A stretch of DNA of 64,000 nucleotides, taken from contig DRGL01000027.1 in NCBI GenBank assembly GCA_011050085.1, positions 62,001 to 126,000 of the forward strand, read 5' to 3'. The translations under genes were made by a program, and so were the position numbers. Numbering within the stretch: the stretch's first letter is position 1; the number at the start of each line of letters is the position of its first letter. The DNA comes from Pricia antarctica (GTDB lineage Bacteria; Bacteroidota; Bacteroidia; Flavobacteriales; Flavobacteriaceae). A model generated the notes under the pieces. It was not told the DNA's origin. It saw only the letters and a list, made by a program, of their open reading frames with translations, and did not search any database. Shown piece after piece: positions 35,217 to 53,868 of this stretch.

Positions 35217-35217
35217 T

Positions 35218-35514: not shown

Positions 35515-35734
35515 ACGTTCTTTTCGAGGCTATAATTTCACTCATTGAAAGTTGGCTATCGGGACCGTTCCAACCTCTTTCTATTTCTTTCCGAAGGTCT
35601 TTTATCACTTTCTCCCTGTAAATATTATGTAACCGTAGGGCGTCCCTAATTACTTCGCTGTTATTCTGATACTCTCCAGAAGCTACCTGTTCGTTTATAT
35701 ATTCCTCTTGTTTCTTGGTGAAACTAATATTCAT
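35504..35734 (-). CDS. ParD-family antitoxin
   Basis: About 76 aa from the ATG at 35732-35734 (MNISFTKKQEEYINEQVASG); three further upstream residues are possible. It has the ribbon-helix-helix N-terminus, including NNSEVIRDALRLHNIYREK, followed by a charged tail that wraps the toxin. It would neutralise the ParE-like toxin encoded downstream and repress its own promoter. The nearest box (35828) is about 94 bp upstream of the start. Confidence 0.88.
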   Translation of the reverse strand: MNISFTKKQEEYINEQVASGEYQNNSEVIRDALRLHNIYREKVIKDLRKEIERGWNGPDSQLSMSEIIASKRTYDQ

Positions 35735-35827
35735 GATTTCCATAATTTATTACTAAGATAATAAAAATGTCCAAATAAGCTATATTTGGACATGTTATAG
35801 TACCGGTCCGTACTTTTTTCAGTAATA

Positions 35828-35897
35828 CTTTATTTGAACTTTTCTGCAGGATTCCACTACCCCGAATTGGTTTTCTTCAACCATCGTTTATCTGAAC
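35828..35897. repeat. Bipartite 70-bp box element, copy B
   Basis: Boxes at 35828 (CTTTATTTGAAC) and 35886 (GTTTATCTGAAC) are 58 bp apart. The spacer is closely related to copies A and D (GGATTCCACTACCCCGAAT). Confidence 0.85.
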
Positions 35898-36376
35898 TGT
35901 AAGGGAACCGCTCCTATCGATGCTTCCCCTTATGGACTGATCAACAATGTGTCGTCCGTCCCTAGTTATTTTCAGCGGATTTTGATAGTGCCGAAAAAAA
36001 ATTCAACATACTTTTTTGACGTGTTGCTTCCTAAGTAGGTTTTGGAACATTGCAACGATTCCTTCCTGATAGCCCTCGGGTATGCGCCCCGCCTTGATCC
36101 ATTCCTTCTTGACCAATTTCCTGTCTTGAAGTCCGTACTCGTTTTTCAGGCACGCCAGTGCCTCCTCTTTGGTGTCATGGTCCATCGATTTGAACAACCT
36201 TCTAATGTTCTCGGTCATGGTCGGCTTTGCTTAGTCCCAAATTTATTCTTAATTGTGAACGGAACAATCATGGATCGTTCAATGGGGGTATTTTTGGGTT
36301 TAATACTTACTTATACCTTGGCCAAAGGCTTTCGGTAGATTTTAAGATCATTTTAGAAACAATCGTGTATTTGAAC
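35886..36376. repeat. Duplicated box-bounded cassette, copy 1 (491 bp)
   Basis: This segment and 42871-43362 are near-identical along their length and both begin and end in a box (GTTTATCTGAAC at the left, G/CTKTATTTGAAC at the right). Sequence similarity stops at the boxes. Each copy contains one 71-codon gene and an internal box-like TTAATTGTGAAC (36249 and 43235). Confidence 0.88.
36003..36218 (-). CDS. 71-aa cassette protein, copy 1
   Basis: A small basic protein (MTENIRRLFKSMDHDTKEEA through LLRKQHVKKVC) predicted to be mostly helical, with no signal peptide. It is 63/71 identical to the protein at 42989-43204; the eight differences are spread along the chain. Conservation at protein level across two copies argues that it is a real gene. 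The family is not recognised. It is the only gene in its box-bounded segment. Confidence 0.7.
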   Translation of the reverse strand: MTENIRRLFKSMDHDTKEEALACLKNEYGLQDRKLVKKEWIKAGRIPEGYQEGIVAMFQNLLRKQHVKKVC

Positions 36377-36422
36377 TTCTGCCCATTCACTTGGGGGGAT
36401 AGATTCATACTTTGTCAATGAA

Positions 36423-36836
36423 TCAACCGAAATTTAGAAATTTTTCATATTCATCCTTGCTAACAATAGTTTCAAGTATTTCAATGAGCGTTTTAAGTTC
36501 AAATGGCTTTGTTACAAAACCTGCCGCACCGAATTCTATTGCTAATCCCTTATCTCGGTCTGAGGAAGATGTAGAATATATTAGAACAGTTATATTCCTG
36601 TATTCAGGAGAAATCTTCAATTTTTGAAGACATTGAAACCCATTTACTATAGTCATATTTATGTCCAAAAAAATTAAATCAGGAAGATAATCGGCGTTCA
36701 ATGCTAAATGTTTGAACAAATATGCACAGCTTTCAAGGTGCAAGAAATTAATTGGTTGACCAACGAAGCTGACCGCATGTCCGAAAAAATCAGCGTCATC
36801 AAAGTCGTCATCTACCAATAGAATTCTTTTGATCAT
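36423..36836 (-). CDS. Response regulator following the CheB/CheR/kinase hybrid
   Basis: 137 aa from the ATG at 36834-36836 (MIKRILLVDDDFDDADFFGH), which overlaps the kinase stop in an ATGA arrangement. It is a receiver domain with LVDDD, phospho-acceptor Asp in LIFLDINMT, Ser/Thr switch in LIYSTSSSD and Lys in FVTKPFELKT. There is no output domain. It is translationally coupled to the 1100-aa kinase, so it is almost certainly its phosphorylation partner. It resembles single-domain Rcp1-type regulators. Confidence 0.9.
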   Translation of the reverse strand: MIKRILLVDDDFDDADFFGHAVSFVGQPINFLHLESCAYLFKHLALNADYLPDLIFLDINMTIVNGFQCLQKLKISPEYRNITVLIYSTSSSDRDKGLAIEFGAAGFVTKPFELKTLIEILETIVSKDEYEKFLNFG

Positions 36837-39800: not shown

Positions 39801-40135
39801 GGGGAGTAGGTGTGTTTTTCCCCGAGCTCCTCTAATTTCAATGTCTTATTTGTATAGATTACTTTCTTGTTTTCCGGCGTTACATATATTCTTTTGGCCT
39901 CTACCCGCATAGCTTCCTCCACGGTGACAACGGGCCAGCTACATTGCCTTGAAAGTATGGAGGCAAGTTCGCTTTTATGGGCCGGGCTGAGATGCTGCGC
40001 TATGATTACGGCAATATTCAAAGTGTCCCCGTTGAAGCTGTTCAGCATTTTCGTAAGGGCGTCGATTCCACCTGCGGATGTGCCGACACCAATAATATAT
40101 AGTTCGCTTTCGCTTTTTGATGTTCTTTTTACCAT
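36833..40135 (-). CDS. CheB-CheR-PAS hybrid sensor histidine kinase (1100 aa)
   Basis: Domains in order: CheB methylesterase (about 10-190; VGTSAGGIDAL, DDLFISIAENERSHAIGVVLSGTAKDG); CheR methyltransferase (about 205-470; SVGCSTGQEAYSIAIVFQEL and RNLLIYF). A PAS-like part follows, then a striking coiled coil built from repeats of SNEEL (about 645-715) and a PAS/PAC sensor (about 725-850). Last come the HisKA helix with phospho-acceptor His in FAHVASHDLTEP and the HATPase (NNLIKNSLKF, DNGIGF, GTGLGLAI). No membrane helix is seen. It combines receptor-type methylation chemistry with kinase output, as in known Bacteroidota and cyanobacterial proteins. It is followed by a coupled response regulator and preceded by a broken CheB gene. 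Confidence 0.93.
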   Translation of the reverse strand: MVKRTSKSESELYIIGVGTSAGGIDALTKMLNSFNGDTLNIAVIIAQHLSPAHKSELASILSRQCSWPVVTVEEAMRVEAKRIYVTPENKKVIYTNKTLKLEELGEKHTYSPNIDDLFISIAENERSHAIGVVLSGTAKDGSKGIKTIKEYGGFTIAQAPKSAQFDDMPLAAIRTGMVDVVSHPSKIFDEISYYIKNHRIIKHIVPTKKGIDLIFELLSKQSGTDFSQYKQSTILRRVDKRMEALRLPDLNEYYQFIKQNPVELDRLFETVLIGVTEFFRDKVAFTALSEQITNILGQKHDNDPIRVWSVGCSTGQEAYSIAIVFQELLEHETMNFQLQIFASDIDERALAIARKGVFSAEAVASLTPVMLEKYFDRTDDGYEVKKTTKQHILFSRHDITNDPPFVKLDLVVCRNLLIYFNNDLQKDALRVFNYALRPNGILFLGKSESVSVAPQLFSKIEGTKIFRRVQSGTRLNLSFSRYRPKLEEDETDVGQNSFMSLVDVAKEALYYSAKNPFVIISETGEIKESQGSLRKYIELSPGSMDANIFKMANKELVMEIRILLGKVKKTSKAQSGTVIEFILYEQVNHVRMDMMPLAYPSDGSRMYILSFENINLESTGYLKYAKKLSKDDFENLRIRELELELESLRFQLQTFSEELELNNEEIRSTNEELQSANEELKTSNEELETSNEELQSSNEELHTANTELRFLNKQILEKEAALRKSEEQFRLMANNIPTLCWMADADGYIYWYNMRWYEYTGATPEQMEGWGWQSVHDPKILPEVIERWQGSIAKGNAFEMTFPLKKQDGTFHPFLTRITPLKDREGKVLQWFGTNTDITEQKDQEAMLDKLVLERTEELANLNIDLNQSNSDLQRFAHVASHDLTEPVRKIRTFSGMLEHELRDSFPGKSKVFLDKINKSTERMYFMIGGILDYAKLDSFRVLDDTVDLNEVMKNILSDLDFLIEEQAATVHVDDLHIVEGSQFLLTQLFNNLIKNSLKFTRKGIPAMIEVKEVTTSGSNRKFIKIAVIDNGIGFEQEHEAAIFETFTRLHSKSTYEGTGLGLAICRKIAERHGGNIEATAKKEEGAIFTITLPIKQTRS

Positions 40136-40202
40136 CAGTCGTTCAATTGTATAAGTTCGCTAGACGGGTAATTTGCGCGGTTACCTCTCTTTCCTTGTCC
40201 TT

Positions 40203-41116
40203 CTAGGAAGATGCTATAAATTTATATCCTTTTGTGGCAAGTTCCTCGACCATGCGCCTCAAAAACATTTTCTTCTCCTCCAAAGTCCTCAACGATACCC
40301 AAAGTGTCTCTTCCAGTTTGTCGTTTTGCGTTTGGAGCAAAGCTTTCTGGGTAAATGAATGACCAACATGGCAGCGATATCTTTTGATACCTTTCTCTTT
40401 CATTTCCCATACCGGCCCCCCGCAACTTGCATAACTTAGAGCGACCTGTTCACCCAAGCTTTGCTCCGTTCGGACCTTGCTTTTTACTTTAATGGCAATA
40501 TTGGCGTCACTCATAATGGATTCGGGTACCGATAATTCCGCAGGTAGGTCCTGCTACCAGATTTCCTTGATCGCGGTACTTGTTTTTTTAAGCTTCAAAA
40601 CATAGTCTATTTCTACAAAATCTTGGGCTGAAGAGGAAATATCCTGAAAATCTGCTGTCTCAGGATTCTGAATTATCGCCAGTCCGCCCCATTTTTTGAT
40701 CGCTTCCAGTCCTGAAGTACCATCGTTCAACCTTTCTGTAAGCAATACCCCTACACACATGCTGTTGAAACTCGCGACGGCACTCCTGTACAGGACATCT
40801 ATGGAAGGCATGAAAAAATTTCTCTTGGCCCCATAGACCTCGTGATGGTAGAACCCCTTATAAAAAGATGGTTATTGGGCCGACTAAGATAAATTTTAAA
40901 GCCTTCGATTAAAATTTCCGTTTTAGCAGGCTCAACTATTAGCTTCGTCCTTTTTTGCAGGAAGTGCCCTAAATCGGTAAGGGAATCGATGGCGCCATAA
41001 AACACAACGGCAAATGCAGCACTGATATCGGGGTCTAAATTTTTCAGGGCCTTCAAGACAGCGGTATGTCCTCCAGCTGATGCACCGATACAAAAAAGCC
41101 TAAAATTGGAAACCAT
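40203..41116 (-). pseudogene. Broken CheB-type methylesterase gene
   Basis: Three pieces of one gene of about 305 codons are recognisable in order on the minus strand. The first is the N-terminal CIGASAGGHTAVLKAL part (40799-41116). The second is the middle PSIDVLYRSAVASF / GVLLTERLNDGTSGLEAIKK part (40554-40811). The third is a C-terminal CheB-associated zinc-like domain (RYRCHVGHSF and LEETLWVSLRTLEEK, 40203-40514). Pieces one and two are in different frames (frameshift near 40800). Pieces two and three share a frame but are separated by an in-frame TAG at 40554-40556. It would once have paired with the adjacent CheB/CheR/kinase hybrid. Confidence 0.88.
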
Positions 41117-41224
41117 TCAAATCAATTTTAGTTTCAAAGATAAAATTTAATTTACATAAGAAATTGCGTGTTAAATATTTATACCTCTTAATAAATAACT
41201 GACTTTTATTTCTTGAATTCTATC

Positions 41225-41419
41225 GTTTTTATGAACTTTTGCTGTTCTGAAAGGGGTCGTATTATTTATCGAATTTCTAACCAACCTGTCGGGCAAGGGG
41301 AATATCTAACATAGGTTACCATTTTTCGAACCCTAAAAAGTAAAAGCTCCTTCCCGGCCTTGCGGCTCCCCTGGAAAGAAACGTGTCTGTTCTATGGCTA
41401 TTTCATTGTTTTATTGAAC
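41225..41419. repeat. ORF-less box-bounded repeat, copy 1 (195 bp)
   Basis: Starts with the box GTTTTTATGAAC (41225) and ends with GTTTTATTGAAC (41408-41419). It is nearly identical to 41975-42168, which also begins and ends in boxes. It contains TGCTGTTCTGAAAGGGGTCG and ACCAACCTGTCGGGCAAGGG in both copies. No coding frame is conserved. Confidence 0.85.
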
Positions 41420-41537
41420 TTTCACAATACAATTTAATAACAATTTCGATAACTAAATTTCTATCCTGTCCGATTTGAACAAAATAACTTCGCAGTGCCA
41501 TTCGTGGATACGTTCTTAAGTTTGAGTTAGCTAGTGT

Positions 41538-41570
41538 AAGCCGGTAAAAGTTATCGGCTTTTTTATTTTA
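41538..41570 (+). terminator. Plus-strand intrinsic terminator without an obvious gene
   Basis: AAGCCGGTAA and TTATCGGCTT form a 10-bp stem (one wobble) around AAG, followed by TTTTATTTTAT. No plus-strand gene ends here. Confidence 0.75.
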
Positions 41571-41613
41571 TCTATTCGGGAAGGAATTAATCGTTTAATT
41601 ATACTTTAAAAAT

Positions 41614-41973
41614 TCATATACTTATGCAATAATCAATAAAAAGAGCGATTATCTGAAGTCCGAATCCTGTAACTAAAAGAACAAATCCACATTTAGAATT
41701 CTTATAATTACTTGCTCCATTATGATATAAATACAAATGTTCTGATTCTGTCAATTCAATTGGTTTTCCAGCTAACATGTCAGACACTCTATTTCTTTGT
41801 GGTGCAGATAAATCGATTTGATTATCCTTATTAGTAACGAAGGGATTGTCTTTTAAATATTCGATTTTATGTGATGTAATCTCAATACCGACAAGAATAA
41901 TTACACCCAAAATATCAAATACTAAACCAGTTCCGGTAACCAATTTGCCAATATCTAAACAGTAATTTTCCAT
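41614..41973 (-). CDS. 119-aa membrane protein of unknown function
   Basis: From the ATG at 41971-41973 (MENYCLDIGKLVTGTGLVFD), two transmembrane helices (near residues 8-30 and 95-117) flank a soluble loop with DLSAPQRNRVSDMLAGKP. The ATG lies directly at the end of the 41975 box (the minus strand reads ACGATG), as in a compact gene cassette. An upstream extension into the repeat is possible but crosses box DNA and is less likely. Family not recognised. Confidence 0.65.
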   Translation of the reverse strand: MENYCLDIGKLVTGTGLVFDILGVIILVGIEITSHKIEYLKDNPFVTNKDNQIDLSAPQRNRVSDMLAGKPIELTESEHLYLYHNGASNYKNSKCGFVLLVTGFGLQIIALFIDYCISI

Positions 41974-41974
41974 C

Positions 41975-42168
41975 GTTTTTATGAACTTTTGCTGTTCTGA
42001 AAGGGGTCGTATTATTTCTCGAATTTCTAACCAACCTGTCGGGCAAGGGGAATATCTAACATAGGTTACCATTTTTCGAACCCTAAAAAGTAAAATCTCG
42101 CCCCCGGCCTTGCGGCTCTCCTGAAAGAAACGTGTCCGTTCTATGGCTATTTCATCCTTTATTTGAAC
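41975..42168. repeat. ORF-less box-bounded repeat, copy 2 (194 bp)
   Basis: Begins with GTTTTTATGAAC (41975) and ends with CTTTATTTGAAC (42157-42168). It is nearly identical to 41225-41419, with differences concentrated in its last third. It immediately follows the start of the 119-aa gene. Confidence 0.85.
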
Positions 42169-42180
42169 CTTGCTAAGGTT

Positions 42181-42250
42181 TAGGCAATGTGCAGTGCCGC
42201 TCTCTATACGCTCGGGTCTTTGGATTGAGCACTTACTCCCACATTGCCTA
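42181..42250. repeat. Long imperfect hairpin with attC-like geometry
   Basis: TAGGCAATGTG at 42181-42191 pairs with its complement at 42240-42250 (11 bp). After an asymmetric internal gap, AGTGC (42193-42197) pairs with GCACT (42229-42233). The central loop is about 30 nt. It lies between a box (42157) and the stop of the following gene (42277). Confidence 0.65.
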
Positions 42251-42276
42251 TGGAAATCATTATTAGGTTTTCGTAC

Positions 42277-42729
42277 TTATTCCTTGATGAAATATTCAAT
42301 AAGTGTGGTATCTGGCCTTCCAGAATTATCCTTATAATGTCTATTATGAGTCATTTCTAGTTTCCCATCAATGATTTCATAGGTTATAGCGCTTTCTGCA
42401 AATTCTTGATCCCAATAAAGTTCAAATTTATTAGTTCCCTTCTCCAATTCATTAGCAACATTTTCTCCCCAATCACAATCTTGTGGAAGGCAAGCGCCCC
42501 ACATTCGGACGACGAAACCGTTGCCTTTATAAGAAATTTTGCACTTGGTAATCGATCTTGTCCGGTCGCCTTGCTCGTTAACCCATAACCCAATGATGTC
42601 ATTATTCAAATTCTTTTGCAATTCCTTATCAGTAGTTTGGTATAAACTATTTATATTATAATTGGGAGATTCTACATTAGTACCTAAAAATGAAAGAAGA
42701 AGGGAAATGGTAGTGATGAATATTTTCAT
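42277..42729 (-). CDS. 150-aa exported protein of unknown function
   Basis: A signal peptide (MKIFITTISLLLSFLGTNVE) is followed by a compact beta-rich domain (DIIGLWVNEQGDRTRSITKC, MWGACLPQDCDWGE, FELYWDQEFAESAITYEIID). The GxW start is reminiscent of small lipocalin-like domains, but no firm family can be named. It is a single gene between boxes 42157 and 42813, in the common orientation of the array. Confidence 0.65.
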   Translation of the reverse strand: MKIFITTISLLLSFLGTNVESPNYNINSLYQTTDKELQKNLNNDIIGLWVNEQGDRTRSITKCKISYKGNGFVVRMWGACLPQDCDWGENVANELEKGTNKFELYWDQEFAESAITYEIIDGKLEMTHNRHYKDNSGRPDTTLIEYFIKE

Positions 42730-42812
42730 GCTTTTTAAATTTTACTGTATTAAAGCTAACAATTAAATATCATCTTTGATGATGTCACACTTATATCTCG
42801 AAATTAATAATC

Positions 42813-42882
42813 GTTTAATTGAAGTTTTGAGTTGCGGGATTCCTCCCCCTCTACCGGTTTCAGAACTATCGTTTATCTGAAC
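42813..42882. repeat. Bipartite 70-bp box element, copy C
   Basis: Boxes at 42813 (GTTTAATTGAAG) and 42871 (GTTTATCTGAAC) are 58 bp apart. The spacer is more diverged than in the other three copies but keeps the GGGATTCC core and the final CTATC. Confidence 0.75.
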
Positions 42883-43362
42883 TATAGGGACACCGCTCCT
42901 ATCGACGCTTCCCCTAATGGACTAATCAACAATGTATCGTCCGTCCCTAGTTATTTTCAGCGGATTTTGCTGGTGTCGAAAAAAAAACTCAACATGCTTT
43001 TTTTACGTGTTGCTTCCTAAGTAGGTTTTGGAACATTTCAACAATCCTTTCCTGATAGGCCTCGGGTATGCGCCCCCCCTTTATCCATTCCTTCTTGACC
43101 AATTTCCTGTTTTGAAGGCCGTACTCGTCTTTCAGGCACGCCAATGCCTCCTCCTTGGTGTCATGGTCCATCGATTTGAACAACCTTCTAATGTTCTCGA
43201 TCATGGTCGGCTTTGCTTAGTCCCAAATTTATTCTTAATTGTGAACGGAACAATCATGGATCGTTCAAAGAGGATATTTTTGGGTTTAATGCTTACTTAT
43301 ACCTTGGCCAAAGGCTATCGGTAGATTTTCAGATTATTTTAGAAACAATCCTTTATTTGAAC
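42871..43362. repeat. Duplicated box-bounded cassette, copy 2 (492 bp)
   Basis: Copy of 35886-36376, bounded by GTTTATCTGAAC (42871) and CTTTATTTGAAC (43351-43362). It is inserted between the unknown exported-protein cassette and a toxin-antitoxin cassette. Confidence 0.88.
42989..43204 (-). CDS. 71-aa cassette protein, copy 2
   Basis: Paralogue of 36003-36218 (MIENIRRLFKSMDHDTKEEA ... HVKKAC). It is helical and basic, with many Lys/Glu and no signal peptide. Substitutions such as Asn/Asp and Gly/Ala are conservative, and the frame is intact. I do not recognise the family. Confidence 0.7.
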   Translation of the reverse strand: MIENIRRLFKSMDHDTKEEALACLKDEYGLQNRKLVKKEWIKGGRIPEAYQERIVEMFQNLLRKQHVKKAC

Positions 43363-43658
43363 TTTAGCAATTCGTTTATTTTCTCCGGATCATCGAAATT
43401 TCCCCAGAAATATTCAATTTCAATTGTATTATCCAAAATTCTATAGAACATTGTGGTATGCTTTGTAATGAATGCTTCACGACTGATATTATCATATTCA
43501 GAAATCTTAAACATTTCTGGATTCTTGGCAATCAGTTTAATAGTATGATCAACAGTATTGACGAAACTAGTCGCTATTTCGATGTTCCAAATGTCCAGCA
43601 GGTAGTCTACAATTCCGTTGAATGAATTTTCAGCTTTTCTAGTCCAAACAACCTTCAT
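43353..43658 (-). CDS. RelE/ParE-family toxin, second toxin-antitoxin pair
   Basis: A 101-aa protein with the RelE-type helix-strand pattern (VVWTRKAENSFNGIVDYLLD..., LIAKNPEMFKISEYDNISRE, TTMFYRILDNTIEIEYFWGN). It overlaps its antitoxin gene by 4 bp. Its last codons, encoding LKFK and the stop, are made by the box CTTTATTTGAAC (43351-43362): the box encodes the protein's C-terminus. It is unrelated in sequence to the ParE at 35218. Confidence 0.85.
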   Translation of the reverse strand: MKVVWTRKAENSFNGIVDYLLDIWNIEIATSFVNTVDHTIKLIAKNPEMFKISEYDNISREAFITKHTTMFYRILDNTIEIEYFWGNFDDPEKINELLKFK

Positions 43659-43966
43659 GCACGCAATTTTTTACGTACATGTCCCATAATGTCTTTATGA
43701 TTCCTTATTCTTCCATTCTTACTGTCTTCCCTGCTTGCCCTTAGAGCTTCCTTAATTTCAAAAGCCTTAGCTTCTTCAGGAAAAAGAAGATTACTAAGGA
43801 TGACCATTTCGTCAATAGTGAAATTCTTCTTCTTGACTTTGTTGTAAAATGTAGCACGAGAAACGCCAAGTTGTTCAATCAAATAATCCTTTTTAAATTT
43901 ACTATCATCAATATAAATATCTATATTTTCAAGTAAACCTTGATATTTGTATACTATGTCTAACAT
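43655..43966 (-). CDS. Antitoxin-like helix-turn-helix protein
   Basis: A 103-aa protein containing an HTH segment KKDYLIEQLGVSRATFYNKV near residue 25 and a C-terminal charged region. It is positioned upstream of, and overlapping by 4 bp, the RelE/ParE-like toxin gene. By position it is the antitoxin and likely autorepressor. The HTH type is not the ParD ribbon-helix-helix, so the pair is a different TA class from the one at 35.2 kb. Confidence 0.75.
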   Translation of the reverse strand: MLDIVYKYQGLLENIDIYIDDSKFKKDYLIEQLGVSRATFYNKVKKKNFTIDEMVILSNLLFPEEAKAFEIKEALRASREDSKNGRIRNHKDIMGHVRKKLRA

Positions 43967-44333
43967 CTTGATATAATTTATGTTGTATTCTTAGACTAAT
44001 ATACTTAAAATATTGGAATATTATCTAATTAAAATTGAATACTATCGTTTATTTGAACTTTTCTACGGGATTCCATTACCCCAAATAGGTATTCTTCAGC
44101 TATCGTTTATTTGAACTTTAAAGCCGGTATAATCTCTTGCATTGTTATCATGTTTCGCCGTGAAGCTGAAAACTTCGCAGAGTAAATTAAAACTATGGGG
44201 CTATACTAAAAGCAAGATAAAAATAAAAGCATATACTAATCCTACCATCCGTAGGACTGATTGAATATCTGTAATCATTCCGTCTAATAGCAAGCCTATA
44301 AGTATTCTTACTTACTAATATAATAGTTATACA
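43967..44333. other. Intergenic region holding box element copy D
   Basis: 367 bp with no gene. The 70-bp bipartite element lies at 44047-44116. A small hairpin TCCTAC/GTAGGA is at 44240-44256. Confidence 0.5.
44047..44116. repeat. Bipartite 70-bp box element, copy D (best match to consensus)
   Basis: Both boxes are GTTTATTTGAAC (44047 and 44105), 58 bp apart. The spacer contains GGGATTCCATTACCCC and AGGTATTCTTCAGCTATC. Either box is a quasi-palindrome (GTTTA-TT-TGAAC), so the two can pair with themselves or each other. Confidence 0.9.
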
Positions 44334-45206
44334 TTATTCTATCTCAGTCAATTTACTATCGGGAGCCAGTTCGATTAATTTTACAATTCTGGATTTTTCA
44401 GAATTAGTAATTAGCGAAACTTCTTCCTTATAAGAATCAAACATGTACAAGTCATTTATTTTAAACCATTTTGCTCCATCAATTGTAGAGTACCTTCCAA
44501 TTAGAAGAAAATAAATAGATTTCGCTGTTTTCGAATTGTCGAACTTAAACCCGGATATCCAACTAGATTGCCTATAAAGTCTGAGATTTTTGGGAAAGAA
44601 ATTAATGCGGGCCACACTAAGAGACTCATCCTCAAAATTTAAGAGTACCAAGCAATTAATGTTAAAATTGGTTGAACCGGCATCGTAACTATTAAATCGA
44701 ATTTTATAATTATTTAAAAGCTCATGATTTTCTTCCTTGAATACTCCATTTTCGTCTATTATTAAAACTGGGTCCGCTTCATTATAATAATTCACCGTGT
44801 TTTTAACAGAATCTTTTAATACTATGATATTATTCTTCAAAGTATCAAGGGAAAGTTCTTGTTGAGCAAACGCCTTAGATAAAGCTTCAAATAAATCTTT
44901 ACTCGTGGATTCAACCCCCTTTTTAATACCAGCGGTGATTGTATAATCTCTTTCAAGACGCTCTTTTTTTAATAATAAATCTTTTTGATTAGACAATGCT
45001 TTTGTATTCAGCTCTTGTCCAATCAATATTAGTAAAAATGATAAAAGCGTAAAGAAAACATATTTGCCTCTGATAGTTAATCTTTTCCATACACCTTTAA
45101 ATTTATTATTAGTAAGTCCGCCTTTTGTTGTCAAAAAGGTCAAATATGCTGTGGATATTCCTATCAGGATAACAAATATTATGTTTGGCAGAATTATAAA
45201 TATCAA
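44334..45206 (-). CDS. 290-aa membrane-anchored protein of unknown function
   Basis: Two N-terminal transmembrane helices (IFIILPNIIFVILIGISTAY and YVFFTLLSFLLILIGQELNT). A coiled-coil region (about 75-130, KKERLERDYTITAGIKKGVE...) follows, then a beta-rich C-terminal domain beginning near residue 150 (DPVLIIDENGVFKEENHELL). The C-terminal domain is predicted to be on one side of the membrane only. The family is not recognised. It is a single gene between boxes 44105 and 45242. Confidence 0.65.
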   Translation of the reverse strand: MIFIILPNIIFVILIGISTAYLTFLTTKGGLTNNKFKGVWKRLTIRGKYVFFTLLSFLLILIGQELNTKALSNQKDLLLKKERLERDYTITAGIKKGVESTSKDLFEALSKAFAQQELSLDTLKNNIIVLKDSVKNTVNYYNEADPVLIIDENGVFKEENHELLNNYKIRFNSYDAGSTNFNINCLVLLNFEDESLSVARINFFPKNLRLYRQSSWISGFKFDNSKTAKSIYFLLIGRYSTIDGAKWFKINDLYMFDSYKEEVSLITNSEKSRIVKLIELAPDSKLTEIE

Positions 45207-45241
45207 CTATTATTCTTTTTTTTCAAAATTATAAACATCTT

Positions 45242-45285
45242 GTTTATGAACTCTTTTACTATAAGAATTATTCTTTTATTTAAAC
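45242..45285. repeat. Close pair of boxes around the end of the Sel1 gene
   Basis: GTTTATGAAC (45242-45251, a shortened box) and TTTTATTTAAAC (45274-45285) are 32 bp apart. The second encodes the last codons of the Sel1 protein. Confidence 0.6.
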
Positions 45286-46760
45286 TTTAGAGCACTGGAT
45301 TTAGGATTTACTGCCAATAAACTATCTATTATAGCTTTAGCCTTATCATTACCTCCACTATGTGCCTTGTGCAACAATTCTAACCCAATGTCTACATTGC
45401 TATTTACGCCAAATCCGTCTACATACATCATTGCTAAGTTGAATTGTCCATTTGCATTTCCCTGATGGGCGGCCTTTGAATACCAATCAAATGCAGATTT
45501 TAAATCTTGTTCAACACCTAATCCTTTAGAGTAAAGAATACCTAAATTAGATTGTGATCTAGTATTCCCCAATTCAGAAGCCTTTGAGAACCAATTAAAG
45601 GCTTTTTTAAAATTATGGGGAACCCTTTTATCTAGCATATAAATTACACCCAAGTTGTGTTGTGCCTCGCAATGGCCATTTTTAGCTGCTTTTAAATACC
45701 ATTTTATAGCGTAATCAACGTTTTCCTTAATTTCTCCTAAACCCTGTGAATATATTACCCCTAAATCAAATTGTGCAAGCGGCATGTCATTTTTCGCAGC
45801 TTTCTGCAACAATTCAAAACCAATAGCAAAATTCTGTTCGACTCCTAAGCCTTCGATATATAGTTTTCCTAAAAAATATTCAGCATTTATGTTACCTAAT
45901 TTAGCAGATTTCGAAAACCACGTAAACGCATCAATATAATCTTGTTTGACTCCTACACCTTCAATATACCGCATTGCCAAATTGTATTGCGCATTTAAAT
46001 TACCATTAAGAGCTGCTTTTTGAAACCATTCCACGGCAAGCTTAGAGTCTTTTCTGACACCAAACCCATCCAAATAGAAAATACCCAAATTAGATTGTGC
46101 CAGAGGATTCCCGTTTTCCGCAGCTTTTAAAGTCCATTTAAAAGCTGTTTCGTAATCTTGTTTAACTTCGATACCTTCATAATAAATAACACCTAAATTA
46201 TGTTGTGCAAAACTATCGCCCCTGTCAGCTGAATTTCGAAGCCACCTTAAGGCGGTATCTATATCTTTTTTGACGCCCAATCCTTCAAGATACATCACTC
46301 CTAAATTGTAATATGCATCTACATTACCTTGATTCGCAGCTATTTTGAAATATTTGAAAGCTTCTTTGTAATTGCCTAAAAGAACCTCTGCGGAACCTAG
46401 TGAAAATGGATTGTTCGAGAATATTATTACTGCCTTTGAAGCCTTACTAGTATCATTGACAATAGAGGGATTGCATTCTGCAACATTCGCATTTAGACTT
46501 GTTAAATGCTTTTCCAGCTCTTTACACCTTAGCTTTAACCGTGCTTCCGAGACAACCTTTTCTTCATATTTTTGTAATAATTGCTTATTGATTTCCGCCC
46601 CATCAGAGGGATAAAAGAGGGTTAGAGCACCTATTAAAAAACTTAACGCAGTTAAAATAAAAGCGATAAAACCCAACTTACTCAACATTGACCAATTGTT
46701 AAATTGCGTCCGAGTTGGAATAAGCATAAATCGACTTTTGGTTTTACTCATATTAACCAA
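45276..46760 (-). CDS. Sel1-like repeat protein with N-terminal membrane anchor
   Basis: A 494-aa protein with a basic N-terminus and one transmembrane helix (LGFIAFILTALSFLIGALTL), then a coiled segment. From about residue 125 it has roughly nine Sel1 (SLR) repeats of the type AxxNLGVMYLEGLGVKKD. Sel1 repeats form helical solenoids for protein interaction, often in signalling or secretion. Its last residues LKFK and the stop are encoded by the box at 45274-45285. It is the single gene between boxes 45274 and 46783. Confidence 0.88.
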   Translation of the reverse strand: MVNMSKTKSRFMLIPTRTQFNNWSMLSKLGFIAFILTALSFLIGALTLFYPSDGAEINKQLLQKYEEKVVSEARLKLRCKELEKHLTSLNANVAECNPSIVNDTSKASKAVIIFSNNPFSLGSAEVLLGNYKEAFKYFKIAANQGNVDAYYNLGVMYLEGLGVKKDIDTALRWLRNSADRGDSFAQHNLGVIYYEGIEVKQDYETAFKWTLKAAENGNPLAQSNLGIFYLDGFGVRKDSKLAVEWFQKAALNGNLNAQYNLAMRYIEGVGVKQDYIDAFTWFSKSAKLGNINAEYFLGKLYIEGLGVEQNFAIGFELLQKAAKNDMPLAQFDLGVIYSQGLGEIKENVDYAIKWYLKAAKNGHCEAQHNLGVIYMLDKRVPHNFKKAFNWFSKASELGNTRSQSNLGILYSKGLGVEQDLKSAFDWYSKAAHQGNANGQFNLAMMYVDGFGVNSNVDIGLELLHKAHSGGNDKAKAIIDSLLAVNPKSSALKFK

Positions 46761-46782
46761 AATTACAAACTATTAAATCTTC

Positions 46783-46880
46783 CTTTATTTAAACTTTCGC
46801 AACGGTCTCGGCTAAAATTAGTGCGGTGTGAAATTAGCAAATCCGCAAGTATTGATTTTGGCCTCTTTTGGCTAAAGTTC
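46783..46880. repeat. Box followed by inverted-repeat-rich intergenic DNA
   Basis: CTTTATTTAAAC at 46783-46794. The following 85 bp contain TTTTGGCCTC/TTTTGGCTAA and AAATTAGCAAATCCGC. I have the impression that similar GTGCGGTGTGAAATTAGC-type intergenic sequences occur in other flavobacteria, but this cannot be verified here. Confidence 0.45.
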
Positions 46881-47843
46881 TTATTGGTATTTGAATATAT
46901 CATAGTTACTTTTAAAAAATCGATTTAATCGACCTCCATAGTGTGTGCAAAAATTCTTTTCCTCCAACAATCTTTGTTTATCTGTTGTGCTGAATTTGTC
47001 CCATAACTTAGGCGAGAAAAAAGTATTTTCTGTACAAAAAAGGATAAGAGATGAAATAGCATGCGTAAACTGCTCATTCGATAATTCCTTGAATTCATCG
47101 AAAAATACTTTACCCAGTTCGTCCTTTTTAAATTGGGAAATTAGAATTACGGTTCTTTTACCGTCAGGAATTACGTTTAAGATAATATTGGCATAATTCT
47201 CTCCGTCGTATATGTATTTGTTTTTGTAGGTATATTTTGTTCTCAAAATTGAAGACGCGGCTATAGGGACAAATGGCTCTACAACCCTATAATGATAATT
47301 TATCGAAGAATAATTTTGAGACTCCATTAAATTGTCCAATATCATTTTGTACTTAGAGAGTTTGACAATTGCCCATTCTGTATATCTAGTATGGGCTTCT
47401 AAGTAGTCCGGCGGGAATTCTTTAATGAACTCAGCATCGCTCAAATAATAATTATAAATCTCTGAAATTTGATGAAAGCTGTGAGCAAAAGACCTGTAGG
47501 TTATCAAGAAATTTTGTTCTTCGGTAAAAACAATATCTTCATTCTCTATTGGTGAAAAGAGTTTAGAATCATGATAATCACAAAACCCATTGAATATAGA
47601 AGCCTTCTTTTTTCCGATTGGAACAAGGTCCATCGTCTGGAAATTTGCATCCGATTTAACCGAGTCGAATGAATAAAGAACTTGATTTTTGTTTATAGTC
47701 GATGTTATTTGTGAAAGAATTTTTTCCTTTTGGATACTGTGCGCGTTTTTGATTTTCGAACTACATAGGGTCTTATCACTATGAAAGCAAAATTTTAGTT
47801 TGCTGTTCTTTTTGTAATCTGTAACAATTTCTTTGTAATTCAT
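46881..47843 (-). CDS. 320-aa protein of unknown function
   Basis: A cytoplasmic-looking protein (no signal peptide or membrane helix) starting MNYKEIVTDYKKNSKLKFCF. It contains aromatic-rich segments (LITYRSFAHSFHQISEIYNY, HTRYTEWAIVKLSKYKMILD), FVPIAASSILRTKYTYKNKY, and a C-terminal LSNEQFTHAISSLILFCTEN. I recognise no motif. It is the first gene after box 46783 in the array, in the common orientation. Confidence 0.6.
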   Translation of the reverse strand: MNYKEIVTDYKKNSKLKFCFHSDKTLCSSKIKNAHSIQKEKILSQITSTINKNQVLYSFDSVKSDANFQTMDLVPIGKKKASIFNGFCDYHDSKLFSPIENEDIVFTEEQNFLITYRSFAHSFHQISEIYNYYLSDAEFIKEFPPDYLEAHTRYTEWAIVKLSKYKMILDNLMESQNYSSINYHYRVVEPFVPIAASSILRTKYTYKNKYIYDGENYANIILNVIPDGKRTVILISQFKKDELGKVFFDEFKELSNEQFTHAISSLILFCTENTFFSPKLWDKFSTTDKQRLLEEKNFCTHYGGRLNRFFKSNYDIFKYQ

Positions 47844-48007
47844 TCTTGGAATTGTAACTAATAACTGAATAAACCAAGTATTTGGTTTTATGCGTAAGAT
47901 TACAGATAAATGTATCTGTTTTATTTGTCCTACAAATTATTCCTTTAATCAGACTTCTACTTAGATTTTTTCAGGTAGGACTATAATTAAACTTATTCGT
48001 TCACAGA

Positions 48008-48730
48008 CTAAATAATCGAGAAATCCCGTTGTTTGACTAAGTTTTTAAGCAGGACAAATGCTTTCTCATAAACCTGCTTTAACTCTCCCATACCATGAAT
48101 CCCCTCTTTTTCACCGGTTAGGTATTCATGCGTTATATTTGATTTGCTTCTTTTTTCAACAGTCCTAATCTCTAAACAAAGCTGACTTATTTCATTGATA
48201 ACACCTGTTTCGAGTGTGTTGTGGTGAAGACCCGTTATTTCCTCAAGAGATTCGCGTAATTCTTTAATTCTTTTCAATTCGCTATTCATAAGTTCATATC
48301 GATCAATGCTTTCACTTTCACCAGAAAACTTCAATAAATTAAGTACGAGATTTTCAATTGCGCCCATTTTAAATAAATCAGGTTTGAGAATTGCAACGAA
48401 ATCTTCAGCCTGCGGGTAATTTAAGTTTTTTACTTTAATGGTGCATGTTTCTGAATTAACTCTAAATTCAACAGGCATCTGATTGAAAAAATCGCATATG
48501 GATGTTATAGAATATGCAATTTTACTGCGTAGAAATTTATGATTCTTGTGTTTAAGCAACCGAACTGTAAACAACGGTATCAGCCAAATCGAAAATACTA
48601 TTCCCAAAAAGAAGTAAATAAACCCCGCGTAAATGTTAATCAAAAACGAATCCCAGTCCATATCCCAAGTGATTGCTCTTGTGGCTATAAGTAAAGATGT
48701 AGACATCGTTGTATTGAACATACTTACCAC
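48008..48730 (-). CDS. 240-aa membrane protein of unknown function
   Basis: Begins MVSMFNTTMSTSLLIATRAI with one or two hydrophobic segments (about 28-55, FLINIYAGFIYFFLGIVFSI). A cytoplasmic helical/beta domain follows with ITSICDFFNQMPVEFRVNSE and a C-terminal KQVYEKAFVLLKNLVKQRDF. Alternative starts at Met4 and Met9 exist. Unknown family. An 11-bp palindrome (48807-48831) lies 76 bp upstream and could be its operator. Confidence 0.6.
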   Translation of the reverse strand: MVSMFNTTMSTSLLIATRAITWDMDWDSFLINIYAGFIYFFLGIVFSIWLIPLFTVRLLKHKNHKFLRSKIAYSITSICDFFNQMPVEFRVNSETCTIKVKNLNYPQAEDFVAILKPDLFKMGAIENLVLNLLKFSGESESIDRYELMNSELKRIKELRESLEEITGLHHNTLETGVINEISQLCLEIRTVEKRSKSNITHEYLTGEKEGIHGMGELKQVYEKAFVLLKNLVKQRDFSII

Positions 48731-48806
48731 TTTTTAAACTCAAAAGTTCTTTTTTTTGGATTTTCATTTCAGCTACATAACTGTCGATTTTATGCATCTT
48801 ATAATA

Positions 48807-48831
48807 ATTCTCGTGACAGTGTCACGAGAAT
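48807..48831. promoter_or_regulatory. Perfect inverted repeat upstream of the 240-aa gene
   Basis: ATTCTCGTGAC (48807-48817) and GTCACGAGAAT (48821-48831) are perfect complements around AGT. There is no T run beside it, so an operator for a dimeric regulator is more likely than a terminator. Confidence 0.6.
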
Positions 48832-48877
48832 CCGCTCATTATCGTTCTCGTTAAATTTTTAGTTATCTGTAAGCTTG

Positions 48878-48889
48878 GTTTATTTGAAC
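48878..48889. repeat. Single box GTTTATTTGAAC
   Basis: An exact consensus box between the 240-aa gene and the 241-aa secreted-protein gene, in the array orientation. No 58-bp partner is visible. Confidence 0.75.
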
Positions 48890-49009
48890 TTCTGGCGAAG
48901 TAATTACAGAAAACACGTCACAAAAAAATCTTGCAATCATTAATAATTTGATTCTAAAGATTAAGATTAATAAAATCTAATTGTTTTAGTAATTACTCCA
49001 GTACATTTT

Positions 49010-49735
49010 CTATTCATCAAAAAAGAATTCATGAATATTGATTAAATCACCTCGCCCAATTTGGATCAAGTTCATAGTTTCGTTTAGGTAAATGCCTAAG
49101 GAGCGTTCGTTATATATAAATTTCATTTCGGGGGAGTATTCCGTAACTAAATACATATCTCCACCTATTTTATAAAAATCAATGTCGTCACCTTTTTTCG
49201 CTTTGATTCCACGGTTTACAACCTTACCAGATTCTAGTGTTTTTTTGATCAGTTCGGTATTTTCTTCACCGGAGGCCACTTTGGAATATTCAATCATCAT
49301 GTTCATCCATTCATCACTATCTATCAGAAACCACTCTACCTTTTCGAAATCAATTCCATACTCATTAATCCACCCAAAACTTGTAAAGCCAAATAAGACC
49401 ATTTTTTTGCCTAATTCAGGCTCATTATCTTTTATATCGAATTCCCTGATGGTAAAAGTTATTACCGATGTCGAGGACATGTCTTTTAGTTTTTTCCCGT
49501 CAAAGGCTAGAGTTTTAAGTGAAAACCTACTATACTCCGGATGATTGGTAAGAAACCATTCTGTTGCAGTTAATTCCGCCTGTTCTTTCATTTGTTCTAC
49601 AGCTGCAATTCCGGCTCCTATCGCAACTAAGCCCCCAGCAACAGCAGCAATTGCCGCACCTTCGTTTTGCCCCTTTATATTGTTAGGGAACAAGTAAATA
49701 ATTAGACATAAAATTAATAGTGTTTTTTTAATCAT
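49010..49735 (-). CDS. 241-aa exported protein of unknown function
   Basis: An N-terminal signal peptide (MIKKTLLILCLIIYLFPNNIKG) is followed by a Gly/Ala-rich segment AIAAVAGGLVAIGAGIAAVE, which could form a membrane-inserted or flexible hairpin. A larger mixed domain follows (TEWFLTNHPEYSRFSLKTLA, VITFTIREFDIKDNEPELGK, GWINEYGIDFEKVEWFLIDS). It is in the periplasm or envelope. Family not recognised. It is the single gene between box 48878 and the recombinase gene. Confidence 0.62.
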   Translation of the reverse strand: MIKKTLLILCLIIYLFPNNIKGQNEGAAIAAVAGGLVAIGAGIAAVEQMKEQAELTATEWFLTNHPEYSRFSLKTLAFDGKKLKDMSSTSVITFTIREFDIKDNEPELGKKMVLFGFTSFGWINEYGIDFEKVEWFLIDSDEWMNMMIEYSKVASGEENTELIKKTLESGKVVNRGIKAKKGDDIDFYKIGGDMYLVTEYSPEMKFIYNERSLGIYLNETMNLIQIGRGDLINIHEFFFDE

Positions 49736-50057: not shown

Positions 50058-50672
50058 TTACTTCTTAGCTTTATACGGCCTTAATTTACCTGAGAGACCA
50101 CGCACCCTAAGGTATTTGTAGTATGTGGCCCTTGAGATTTCCAACCGATCTCATATTTCGCTGACGGTCATTCGTCCCTCTTTGAAATACTCCTCGCAAA
50201 GTACCGCTTTTTGTTTGTTTTTTTTGCTCAGGCCCTTCGGGGCTCCCAATACCCTTCCCCTGAGACGTGCGGACTCCAGCCCGGCCTTGGTACGTTCAAT
50301 GATAATGTCCCGTTCCAATTGGGCCAGGGCGGCGAACATGTTGATCAAAAATTTTGTTTGCGAAGATTCCTTTGTAGTATCGATGAAGGGTTCGGTGATA
50401 CTTTTGAACTTCACGCCCTTTTCCTCGAGTTCGTTCATAAGCTTTGTAAAATGGATAAGGCTCCTTGCCAACCGGTCGAGCTTCCATACTACGATAGTGT
50501 CGCCTTCCCTGACGAAGTCCCAGAGTTTGGCAAGGCTTTTTCTCTCCATGGCCATACTCGAGATTTTGTCCGTATAGATATCCTTCAGATCGATGCCCTC
50601 CTGAAGAAGTGCATCGATCTGGAGGTCCAAGTTCTGGTCCGAGGTGCTTACCCTTGCATATCCGAAAATCAT
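50058..50672 (-). pseudogene. Serine recombinase (resolvase/invertase) interrupted by an in-frame TGA
   Basis: The catalytic resolvase domain runs from MIFGYARVSTSDQNLDLQID (catalytic Ser at residue 9) through VVWKLDRLARSL and the LERDIIIERTKAGLESARLRG helix. At codon 174 a TGA stops the frame just after VSEI. Reading through in the same frame gives DRLEISRATYYKYLRVRGLS and ends at TAA 50058-50060. This completes the normal DNA-binding helix-turn-helix. So one substitution (probably TGC, TGT or TGG to TGA) truncates the protein. Unless TGA is read through, only the catalytic domain is made. An inverted box lies 10 bp upstream of the start. Confidence 0.85.
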
Positions 50673-50681
50673 AGTACTAAA

Positions 50682-50795
50682 GTTTAAATAAACGTAAAAA
50701 TAACAACTATTAGTTTAGTACGGTAATTTAAACTTTTTGAGATTAAGAAATACTAAAAGTGCCAATAGTTCAGAAAAACGGCCGTTTAAATGAAC
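50682..50795. repeat. Inverted and divergent boxes around the recombinase promoter
   Basis: GTTTAAATAAAC at 50682-50693 is the reverse complement of GTTTATTTAAAC, so this box is inverted relative to the array. Further box-like sequences are GGTAATTTAAAC (50722-50733) and GTTTAAATGAAC (50784-50795). They sit directly upstream of the recombinase gene, the usual place for its own recombination or regulatory sites. Confidence 0.65.
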
Positions 50796-51433
50796 TTGAA
50801 GTGTGCAATAAAATGTGCTATACCGGAACTAGAAATAACGACAAGTGTAACTAGTAAACAATAATTTATTCCCAATAAATGTCGCGACCCTTAATAACCG
50901 CCATTTTGCAGTACGAAGTGCTTCCAACGTGAACATAAGGGGGCCAGTGAGCTTAAGAGGGATAATCGCTTCTTCTAAAAAACGTCTGCAACCGGTCATT
51001 ACGGAAATCTTTGTTTGAAGGGATATAAGAACAATCGAATATACAAATGTTGGCACCAAGCTGAGAAATGATTTTATCCCGGAGAAATATAAACTAACAT
51101 TGAATAAAGCAACTGATTACAGAGCGGACGCTAGTGGAACCAAAAAAACCAAGAACGGTCGAAAAGGTCACAAAACAAAGGGAATTTATACCCACTGGGC
51201 GACAATACTTTTGACACGATCAAAAATCCATAAGATTAGTGGTGCGGACAAAAGAGAAATATGCGTACCGAAACGCATATACAAATGTTAGCGAACACTT
51301 TTGACCTGTATTGGTAATTGAACAATATTACTGGCAAAAAAAAGTTATGGGATAATAGATTGTAGCCGAAAAAAATTAGAGAGTGTTCAACATTGATTAA
51401 ATAGTTTCTAATAATGTTAAAGAGTTAATATCA
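50796..51433. other. Gene-free stretch with short repeats
   Basis: About 640 bp. A plus-strand frame at 51100-51291 looks unlike protein and is not called. The motif ATACAAATGTT occurs twice (51041-51051 and 51278-51288), each followed by a GGC/AGC. Confidence 0.45.
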
Positions 51434-52358: not shown

Positions 52359-53868
52359 TTATTCCCAGGATTCAATGGTATGCTTCTCTGCGGGTTCCTG
52401 CACACCCTTTTTGATTACTTTAACTCCAATGGAGACCCCCTCGGTATCGCAGCTAATCTCCACTACCGCTTCCTTTTCCATTATTTACGGCTTGGCGGTA
52501 AACGGGGGCGTGTCCTTCCCGCTACACCATTTGTCGACGACCATTTCCCTTTCGGGAATCGAGGACATATCTCCCACTTCTTTTAACTAGTTCTGGAACA
52601 CCTTTCTCAGTTCTTTAAGTTTGGATGCATATCTGGGGTCGTTAGCCAGATTTTGAACTTCATCGGGGTCATTTTCAACATGGTAAAGTTCTTCTGTCGG
52701 CTTGGGCGTTTTAAACCAATCTGCCAAGTATGGATTGGTGATGTTGTTATTTTCCTCCATTTGGAGGATTTCCTTCATCGAAGGGATTCCCTTGCGATAC
52801 GTCAAATCTTGATAGAGGGGCTTTTCGGTCATATAATTTCAAATATAACGAAATCGGTCATTGCGGACCGCACGGACCCTATCGTACTTTTCATCGATAC
52901 GAGCGAGAGCGGCAAAAACGTATTTCTTTTCGTAATAGAGGCATATTTTCCTAGAAACGCCCGCCCCTGAAGGTATTCCGGAGGTTCGATACCGGCCAAC
53001 GACAATACCATAGGCGCAAAATCAAATGAGCTTACCAGATTGTCGACTACCTCGTCGGCATATTACCCTTTGGGATATTTGACCACAAAAGGTATATGGG
53101 TGCCCCTTTCTAATATTTCACGTTTCGTCAGGACAGATTGCACCCATGGTCGCTATAAAAGAAAATATAGTATTGTCGTATAATCCATTATTCTTCAGTT
53201 CCTGGACTATTTTCCCTACATCCGCATCCATCATTGCTATGCGCCTGAACAGATTGGCAAAATCCTTCCTTACGGTTTCCGTGTCCTGATAGAATGCCGG
53301 AAGTTCTATTTCAGAAGGCTCGATTACAGGGCTATCGGGCATTACCATAATCTGGGATTCATGGGTTATAAAAAGGTGGAAGATGCTGAAGAAAGGGGCC
53401 TGAGGTGCGCCAAGGCCCCTATTTGCCGAAAATGGAGGTTGTATAGCTTATCTACCACAAGTTGTCTGCCAGGGTAAGGATGCTGTCCGTAGGGCGCTGT
53501 CCCTCGAGCGCAGAATCAATTTCTACTGAGAGCTGATTTTGTACGTCACCCCGGCTTGCCAATACTTCGTTGCTTCATATAAAAGCATTGCCAGCATGTT
53601 TGCCAGTCAACAATATATATTGGGCAGCGGAGCAAACGGGAGCACTGCTATAATGTTGGATAAAAAGTATGCCGTTTGCGGACAGGGCATCGATATTGGG
53701 GGTTTCAATTTTTTCATGTCCGTAAGCTCCCACTTGCGCGTAACCCAGGTCATCTACCAAAAAATTGATGAAATTGGGCTTTACGACATCGGTAAATACT
53801 ACTGCAGTCTTTGAATTTGTCTCCTTTCGCTTACATGAAAGCGACAAAAGGACAAGAATAAGAAGCAA
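52359..53868 (-). pseudogene. Decayed sulfatase gene
   Basis: Pieces of one sulfatase lie in order on the minus strand. The first is an N-terminal lipoprotein part with NFLVDDLGYAQVGAYGHEKI (53575-53868). The second is a middle part containing DADVGKIVQELKNNGLYDNT (53118-53348). Next comes a region with EYLQGRAFLGKYASIT, and finally a C-terminal part with EELYHVENDPDEVQNLANDP. In-frame stops include TGA after GNAFI and TAG/TAA in the C-terminal part, with frameshifts between pieces. The sulfatase active-site Cys-x-x-x-Arg is mutated (VCSAAQY), so it cannot mature. It is the distal gene of the PUL. Confidence 0.88.

Follow-up and report, generated by a model that had tools for sequence, protein, structure and literature searches.

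What links a broken serine recombinase gene to the array of short repeated boxes beside it? The question arises in a 64,000-nucleotide stretch of contig DRGL01000027.1 of Pricia antarctica (assembly GCA_011050085.1, positions 62,001 to 126,000), called the window here. The original prediction held that a serine invertase could have shuffled the boxes, or alternatively that the boxes were unrelated to it. We favor a third reading, at a probability of about three in four: judging from comparisons of sequences, the array may be an integron-like gene-cassette platform that uses a small serine recombinase instead of IntI.

An array of boxes behind an interrupted recombinase

The box is 18 bp long and consists of a 16-bp half-site followed by AT. 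Its consensus, AAAGTTYAAATAAASGAT, matches the window 17 times at up to three mismatches, compared to 0.99 expected, and none of 100 shuffles reached 17. Sixteen of them, all on the minus strand, span 35825 to 48892; the seventeenth is the inverted one at the recombinase. Between the boxes are short genes of the same direction, including two ParE-type toxin-antitoxin pairs, a Sel1 protein and others with no assigned function. Two units are each present twice in the window, box to box, with 92 to 93% identity, and a third is common to contig C14 at 93%. Genome-wide, a slightly shortened version of the box matches 53 times and the reversed pattern 7 times; the clusters lie on contigs C14, C27 (the window), C58 and C9. 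The features are as follows, from the outer edge of the recombinase module to the far end of the array.

50765-50798 (no strand): palindromic site I, centre GC, outer edge of the recombinase module (half-site matches; homology ends here)
50721-50736 (-): second half-site of the recombinase promoter region, also present in the C9 copy
50679-50696 (+): inverted half-site adjoining the start codon, AAAGTTTAAATAAACG-TA (box match; other loci also have a half-site peak near -24)
50151-50672 (-): small serine recombinase, catalytic domain (PF00239, E 1.6e-40), with TGA codon 174 at its end
50058-50150 (-): helix-turn-helix tail remnant, in frame, 30 codons and TAA (reading-frame continuation)
49010-49735 (-): first gene after the recombinase, function not assigned (no Pfam match over its cut-off)
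48875-48892 (-): box, 3 mismatches
46881-48730 (-): box-to-box unit, two ORFs of 240 and 320 aa (ORF list, Pfam scan)
46780-46797 (-): box, 1 mismatch
45276-46760 (-): cassette gene, Sel1-repeat protein (Pfam scan)
45271-45288 (-): box, 2 mismatches
44334-45206 (-): cassette gene, 290 aa, function not assigned (ORF list, domain scan)
44102-44119 (-): box, exact
44044-44061 (-): box, exact, bounding a 58-bp unit together with the box at 44102
43353-43966 (-): toxin-antitoxin cassette, ParE toxin and upstream HTH-like protein, the latter below the Pfam cut-off (Pfam scan)
43348-43365 (-): box, exact
42864-43364 (-): cassette unit with a 71-aa ORF, repeated at 35879-36378, 92% identical, box to box (alignment)
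42868-42885 (-): box, 2 mismatches
42810-42827 (-): box, 2 mismatches
42277-42729 (-): cassette gene, 150 aa, function not assigned (ORF list, domain scan)
42154-42171 (-): box, 1 mismatch
41968-42171 (-): apparently gene-less unit, a copy of 41218-41422 (93%; alignment)
41972-41989 (-): box, 2 mismatches; its AT plus G is the in-frame ATG of the gene ending at 41614 (box match, ORF list)
41590-41607 (-): box, 2 mismatches
41405-41608 (-): apparently gene-less unit, 93% identical to a unit of the C14 array (L037 11325-11528; alignment)
41405-41422 (-): box, 3 mismatches
41222-41239 (-): box, 2 mismatches
36362-36379 (-): box, 2 mismatches
35883-35900 (-): box, 2 mismatches
35825-35842 (-): box, 1 mismatch
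35218-35743 (-): ParD/ParE toxin-antitoxin cassette (domain scan)
35144-35219 (-): 58-bp unit in degenerate form, its two boxes decayed (4 mismatches each), at the far end of the array (alignment)

The large interval from 36362 to 41222 holds, by eye, a CheB/CheR-like sensor gene with a response regulator, and also separate CheB pieces, one of them identified by Pfam (PF01339), all within 36423-41116. A gene-less 58-bp box-to-box unit occurs at 44044-44119, 35825-35900 and 35144-35219 of the window, and also at 606-691 of L044 and 11512-11569 of L059. Beside the array, at 52587-53868, lies a decayed gene that is sulfatase-like by eye and is broken into pieces in several short frames.

At the head of the array, a minus-strand ORF of 173 residues contains a complete resolvase catalytic domain. 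Codon 174 is a TGA (50151-50153), and beyond it the same frame stays open for 30 codons, with the tail DRLEISRATYYKYLRVRGLSGKLRPYKAKK, before a TAA that ends at 50058. The predicted intact catalytic domain, TGA and in-frame tail were thus all borne out. In an alignment with 35 other sequences of at least 62% identity, a set that includes the C9 copy and some other broken copies, the residue at codon 174 is cysteine in 34 (TGT in 22, TGC in 12); the remaining one, L110 from a longer subgroup, has methionine. The simplest reading of the TGA is a nonsense mutation that deletes the DNA-binding domain, and from its sequence this copy looks like a pseudogene missing its helix-turn-helix, with an assembly error also possible. 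We rejected selenocysteine or other recoding because no tRNA-Sec in the genome exceeds the Rfam cut-off (six weak matches, the best at 39.7 against 47 bits), which leaves the suggested readthrough unsupported as selenocysteine insertion.

The architecture of a small serine recombinase, PF00239 plus a C-terminal helix-turn-helix, is present in an intact homologue, L140 of Muricauda sp. CAU 1633 (PF00239, 1.4e-40; HTH_7, 3.1e-05, residues 165-189), and it is the helix-turn-helix that the window copy loses at the TGA. The L059 recombinase matches PF00239 only. The nearest solved sequences are the DNA invertase 4m6f and gamma-delta resolvase. In the longer recombinases (L059 15184-15852, L070-L111), the protein finishes with a CxxC...CxxH motif that may be a zinc finger and is missing from the window's subgroup.

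Five genes in the genome match PF00239: the one in the window, one each on C9 and C50, and two on C12. The C9 copy is 84% identical to that of the window over 746 bp, promoter sites included, and it is frameshifted upstream of the helix-turn-helix domain. The C50 gene has 43% identity and no repeated promoter site that a weak test could find. Because both box-type recombinases found in the genome are broken, one by the TGA and the other by the frameshift, the arrays, that of the window included, are likely to be frozen if no enzyme is provided in trans. This supports the earlier suggestion that inactivation of the recombinase would freeze the array. Stops or frameshifts are found in 13 of 82 recombinase loci (the window, L036 and L070-L149); in two of these (L083, L131) the break lies close to the gene's end. 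With L099 and L100 taken as a single event, seven of the ten other breaks fall between codons 141 and 174, so that the catalytic domain is retained and the helix-turn-helix is lost.

Boxes and half-sites around recombinase relatives

Scanning contigs with a five-sequence alignment yielded 355 coding relatives of the recombinase. We kept the best 80 of the 355, which come from Maribacter, Arenibacter, Aquimarina, Flagellimonas, Muricauda, Euzebyella and others and cover 624 kb upstream and 686 kb downstream of the genes. Picked by their recombinase, these loci are a biased sample of arrays, and both the loci and the pairs drawn from them are phylogenetically dependent. With up to two mismatches allowed, 306 boxes lie downstream in the direction of the recombinase, compared to two downstream antisense, three upstream sense and none upstream antisense; the reversed pattern gives six matches. 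The zone around the start codon (-300 to +600) holds another 34 boxes, 33 of them inverted. The recombinase and the boxes therefore belong together, and the alternative that they are unrelated is contradicted by the 306 co-oriented downstream copies against five elsewhere outside that zone.

This uniform orientation also bears on the invertase. The recombinase does have relatives among DNA invertases and resolvases, and one inverted box lies at its promoter. A DNA invertase acts between sites in both orientations, however, and downstream we found them at 306 to 2, with genes of at least 100 aa running 293 to 14, nearly all in one direction. The inverted promoter site also recurs in other loci. 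Because of this uniformity, shuffling of the boxes by a serine invertase is unsupported, and it is the least probable of the readings that we weighed.

At least one downstream box is present in 61 of the 80 loci, and in 48 of the 61 loci that have at least 9 kb of downstream DNA. The 19 loci without one divide into six that cover less than 2 kb downstream and 13 that cover at least 9 kb. Homologues without boxes, which had been named as the observation that would count against a link, are thus a minority at this threshold (13 of 61 well-covered loci), and five of these 13 have a box at three mismatches; the rest of the well-covered loci all have boxes. Among plasmid records, 4014 contain a recombinase relative, all below 60% identity.

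A profile of 366 sites revealed no conservation outside the 18 positions in the 24 bp before and 28 bp after them. Its sites were chosen by a 17-base pattern, AAGTTYAAATAAASGAT, so conservation within the pattern is partly by construction; the A that precedes it lies outside the pattern and is conserved at 87%. In three Flagellimonas loci (L088, L091, L098), a common recombinase 3' end is followed by a box 65 bp past the stop codon and then by three different first cassettes. These are three of the 15 loci shown of that subgroup, and the 12 others have no box directly after the recombinase.

In front of the recombinase, the half-site is arranged differently. The inverted box of the window, AAAGTTTAAATAAACGTA, is indeed present and inverted as predicted, but it lies at 50679-50696 on the plus strand, 6 bp from the ATG, rather than at 50682 and 10 bp away. 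Three further half-site matches fall within 50721-50798. Upstream sequence of more than 170 bp is available for 74 of the 80 loci. Before the recombinase genes of these loci, the 16-bp half-site occurs 148 times at up to four mismatches, and 71 of the 74 have at least one copy. The density is 2.0 per upstream window versus 0.11 in control windows, with peaks near -107 (inverted), -64 (direct) and -24 (inverted). A de novo search for repeated sites upstream of 12 further recombinases (L039, L061-L065, L067-L069, L112, L143 and L149) found none above random windows, but this is a weak test, as the L140 positive control likewise did not exceed them (8 versus a maximum of 13).

The dinucleotide that follows the half-site separates these copies from those of the arrays. 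It is AT in 193 of 199 array boxes whose half-site has at most one mismatch, compared to 3 of 147 upstream half-sites, where GT is the most common (67). Since the central two base pairs of serine recombinase sites must be identical between recombining partners, AT can be read as the dinucleotide at which cassettes cross over, and the half-sites before the recombinase as putative control, synapsis or module-edge sites.

Edges of the recombinase module are visible in pairwise comparisons. Homology between the window and C9 copies ends at 50797, and in 82 of 174 recombinase pairs, which are not independent of one another, the 5' end of homology falls at -116 to -103, the centre of the outermost site. 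On the 3' side, 51 of the 174 pairs lose homology at +60 to +92 and 54 at -20 to +10, positions that, like the box behind the three Flagellimonas recombinases, bear on a possible attI-like insertion site. The clustering of left edges at site I would suit a transposon-like element with inverted ends, site I on the left and the box on the right, whose insertions left the units behind so that arrays grow by insertion and decay. Two loci of genome G002 also have a common module, a recombinase with DUF1016, whose left edge is site I. Against such an element, the shared units run from box to box in a single orientation, those listed lie downstream of recombinase genes, and the boxes differ from the upstream sites in their dinucleotides. 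We regard this origin as rather improbable.

We also counted boxes, at up to one mismatch on both strands, in 299 genomes of the family to which the genome of the window belongs. Eleven genomes contain at least five boxes, and eight of these encode a recombinase relative of at least 50% identity (G000, G002, G213, G230, G253, G256, G268 and G299). A ninth, G001, offers only relatives of 45 to 49% identity, and the other two, G161 and G258, have none at E 1e-40, with one weak resolvase in G258. G161 is 99% complete and carries 37 boxes in long arrays with no PF00239 match. Conversely, of the 15 genomes with a recombinase match, six contain at most four boxes, and seven further stretches of one to four boxes each showed no tblastn match to the serine recombinase in the sequence covered. 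Arrays of the G161 type resemble the recombinase-less CALIN of integrons, but they would also fit another enzyme.

The boxes could be the cassette sites of a different enzyme, with the serine recombinase a frequent passenger. One candidate is a small tyrosine recombinase of 195 aa that heads the C20 array of G001 and is also found on contig C83 of the window's genome, the two being 91% identical; the large arrays of G161, with no serine recombinase, would fit as well. Upstream of the tyrosine recombinase, however, is by eye a different palindrome and no box half-site. The enzyme occurs in only two places, plus a 41% relative in L069, among the loci examined, and half-sites precede the serine recombinase in 71 of 74 loci. 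We therefore consider a different enzyme unlikely and retain the serine recombinase as the preferred one.

Several observations concern these and other recombinases. The tyrosine recombinase is of the catalytic-only type and lies near boxes at 1986-2573 of L044 (C83) and 5176-5763 of L150; the palindrome common to both places is TTTACACTATTGGCAATAGTGTAA, by eye unrelated to the box. A second subfamily of serine recombinases (L064, L065) has a different site, GTCCCGTAAAACG, at its own promoter. Its full sites, GTCCCGTAAAACG-WW-CGTTTTACGGGAC, number 19 in G001 on both strands, five in the window's genome and three in G053, with none in six other genomes and none in the control. In L064 (230-10084), L063 and contig C15 of G001, palindromes of the GTCCCGTAAAACG-TT-CGTTTTACGGGAC type lie between neighbouring genes, and a GC-centred copy lies at the subfamily's own promoter. 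This subfamily is suggestive of matched enzyme-site pairs. Outside the studied arrays, there are boxes with TGGGA in place of AT (L042 10094; L043 7998 and 14878; L063 4897), perhaps the sites of another element.

Exchange of box-to-box units and their cargo

Across 89 array regions, we identified 365 box-to-box intervals of up to 3 kb, with length quartiles of 332, 533 and 864 bp. They contain 1.1 ORF each, 30 of them have none, and their ORFs are co-oriented in 375 cases versus 32 opposed; for ORFs of at least 100 aa in the arrays, the ratio is 293 to 14. This is the integron-type arrangement of tandem, co-oriented cassettes, mostly of one ORF and each with a site.

Aligning 91 array regions all against all produced 122 alignments of at least 120 bp. 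Of 217 usable alignment ends, 93 lie within 8 bp of a box, whereas rotated boxes give a mean of 9.6 (maximum 21) and random intergenic positions a mean of 28.8 (maximum 41). Ends at a box in both partners number 72, against a control mean of 1.9 and maximum of 8. The starts of alignments peak at the first base of the box and their ends at the last base. The majority of the ends, 124 of 217, lie away from a box, and 29 of the 122 alignments run fully from box to box. One such unit, of about 454-460 bp, is found in Flagellimonas oceanensis, Muricauda lutisoli, Allomuricauda aurea and Muricauda NBRC 101325. Comparison of sequences shows whole units, from box to box, exchanged among the arrays of different species in the manner of integron cassettes, and recombination at the boxes is the likely source of this exchange.

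Promoter, operator or translation-start elements that come to lie between genes by chance would also produce boxes in such positions. Copies do lie at the recombinase promoter, and 85 of 455 boxes supply the ATG of a frame that stays open for 41 codons or more. Elements of this kind do not account for box-to-box exchange between genomes or for the 30 of 365 intervals with no ORF, and we judge this reading very improbable.

Under the favored reading of a cassette platform, the recombinase would bind the half-site and cleave at the AT dinucleotide, and circular cassettes would be inserted and excised at the boxes, while the sites upstream of the recombinase would serve control or synapsis. Several findings weigh against it: the arrays of G161 with no PF00239 match, the other box-rich genomes without a close relative, the recombinase-bearing loci and genomes with few or no boxes, the tyrosine recombinase heading the C20 array of G001, and a box right behind the recombinase in no more than three of 15 loci. 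In addition, only half of a normal serine recombinase site is conserved, and the AT of the boxes is unlike the dinucleotides of the upstream sites.

The cargo was sampled by drawing at random 120 of the 320 intervals with a co-oriented ORF and scanning the longest protein of each. This sample matched 61 Pfam families at 1e-5, with no family listed having more than two members, and 38 PADLOC families; the cargo families include ParE, Abi_2, glyoxalase and the beta-lactamase fold. For the gene immediately following the recombinase, taken from 63 loci, the median length is 320 aa. Among the first 25 families listed for these 63 genes are GajA models (5) and Old (6), which probably overlap, HsdM_N (3) and MmeI (2); non-defence proteins of the TPR and thioredoxin-like types also appear. 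At a good share of loci the first slot thus holds a gene of an established anti-phage type (GajA-like, OLD-like, HsdM or MmeI), unlike the deeper cargo, which is small and mixed, a difference given as raw counts.

Comparison with known recombination systems

Several known families move genes with serine recombinases or short sites. Like Tn3/gamma-delta resolvases and DNA invertases, the recombinase belongs to a protein family with a catalytic domain plus helix-turn-helix; Tn3/gamma-delta resolvases act at res sub-sites, and likewise several half-sites lie directly upstream of the present gene. Unlike them, there is no invertible segment to be seen, and the site is spread through gene arrays and only half conserved. 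SCC CcrA/B/C and IS607 are also serine recombinases that move cargo, but the Ccr models span 442 to 558 positions, and all scores, IS607 included, are far below the NCBIfam cut-offs; for the CcrA/B/C models, the L140 recombinase scores 38 to 55 bits against cut-offs of 700 to 900. The pdif (dif/Xer) modules of Acinetobacter plasmids are likewise gene modules bounded by short recombination sites; they use XerCD and dif-like sites, whereas here the arrays have one orientation and a serine recombinase at their head. Among the matches listed in a search of the open-access literature, with preprints and most subscription journals outside its scope, there was no description of serine-recombinase cassette arrays.

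We also considered a canonical integron and rejected it. The head gene of the window array is a PF00239 gene, and the IntI model (TIGR02249) exceeded its 265-bit cut-off in none of eight box-bearing genomes, where the best piece reached 135 bits, or 225 together with a second piece of the same gene. A limited test found no attC-like inverted site: no position in the flanks of the box is conserved, and inverted copies of the box are rare downstream (11 of 380 at up to three mismatches). The box presumably does not fit the integron simple-site consensus.

The closest parallel is nonetheless the integron. Integrons are the best-known platform for gathering single genes in arrays, and their tyrosine recombinase acts on folded single strands (PMC8618304, PMC9024848). 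They feature tandem, mostly single-gene cassettes, toxin-antitoxin and gene-less cassettes, and recombinase-less arrays (PMC8618304), the last defined as CALIN (PMC8618304, PMC9024848). The arrays described here share with integrons a recombinase at the head, tandem and mostly single-gene cassettes that each carry a recombination site, toxin-antitoxin and gene-less cassettes, and arrays without a recombinase. They differ in that the enzyme, at about 200 aa, is a serine and not a tyrosine recombinase, and in that the site is an asymmetric 18-bp box with no visible inverted partner. Moreover, the present recombinase reads toward the array, whereas integron intI usually reads away from it.

On balance, we lean toward an undescribed serine-recombinase counterpart of integrons, of independent origin, that is spread across marine Flavobacteriaceae and gathers toxin-antitoxin, anti-phage and other cassettes tagged with the 18-bp site, often with a defence gene beside the recombinase. 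If this is true, the stockpiling of cassettes has more than one evolutionary origin; the platform would also account for some of the accessory genes of marine Bacteroidota, anti-phage genes among them, and could yield a tool for serine recombination whose site is very short. We regard the proposed mechanism, with its putative enzyme activity, as an independent analogue of integrons.
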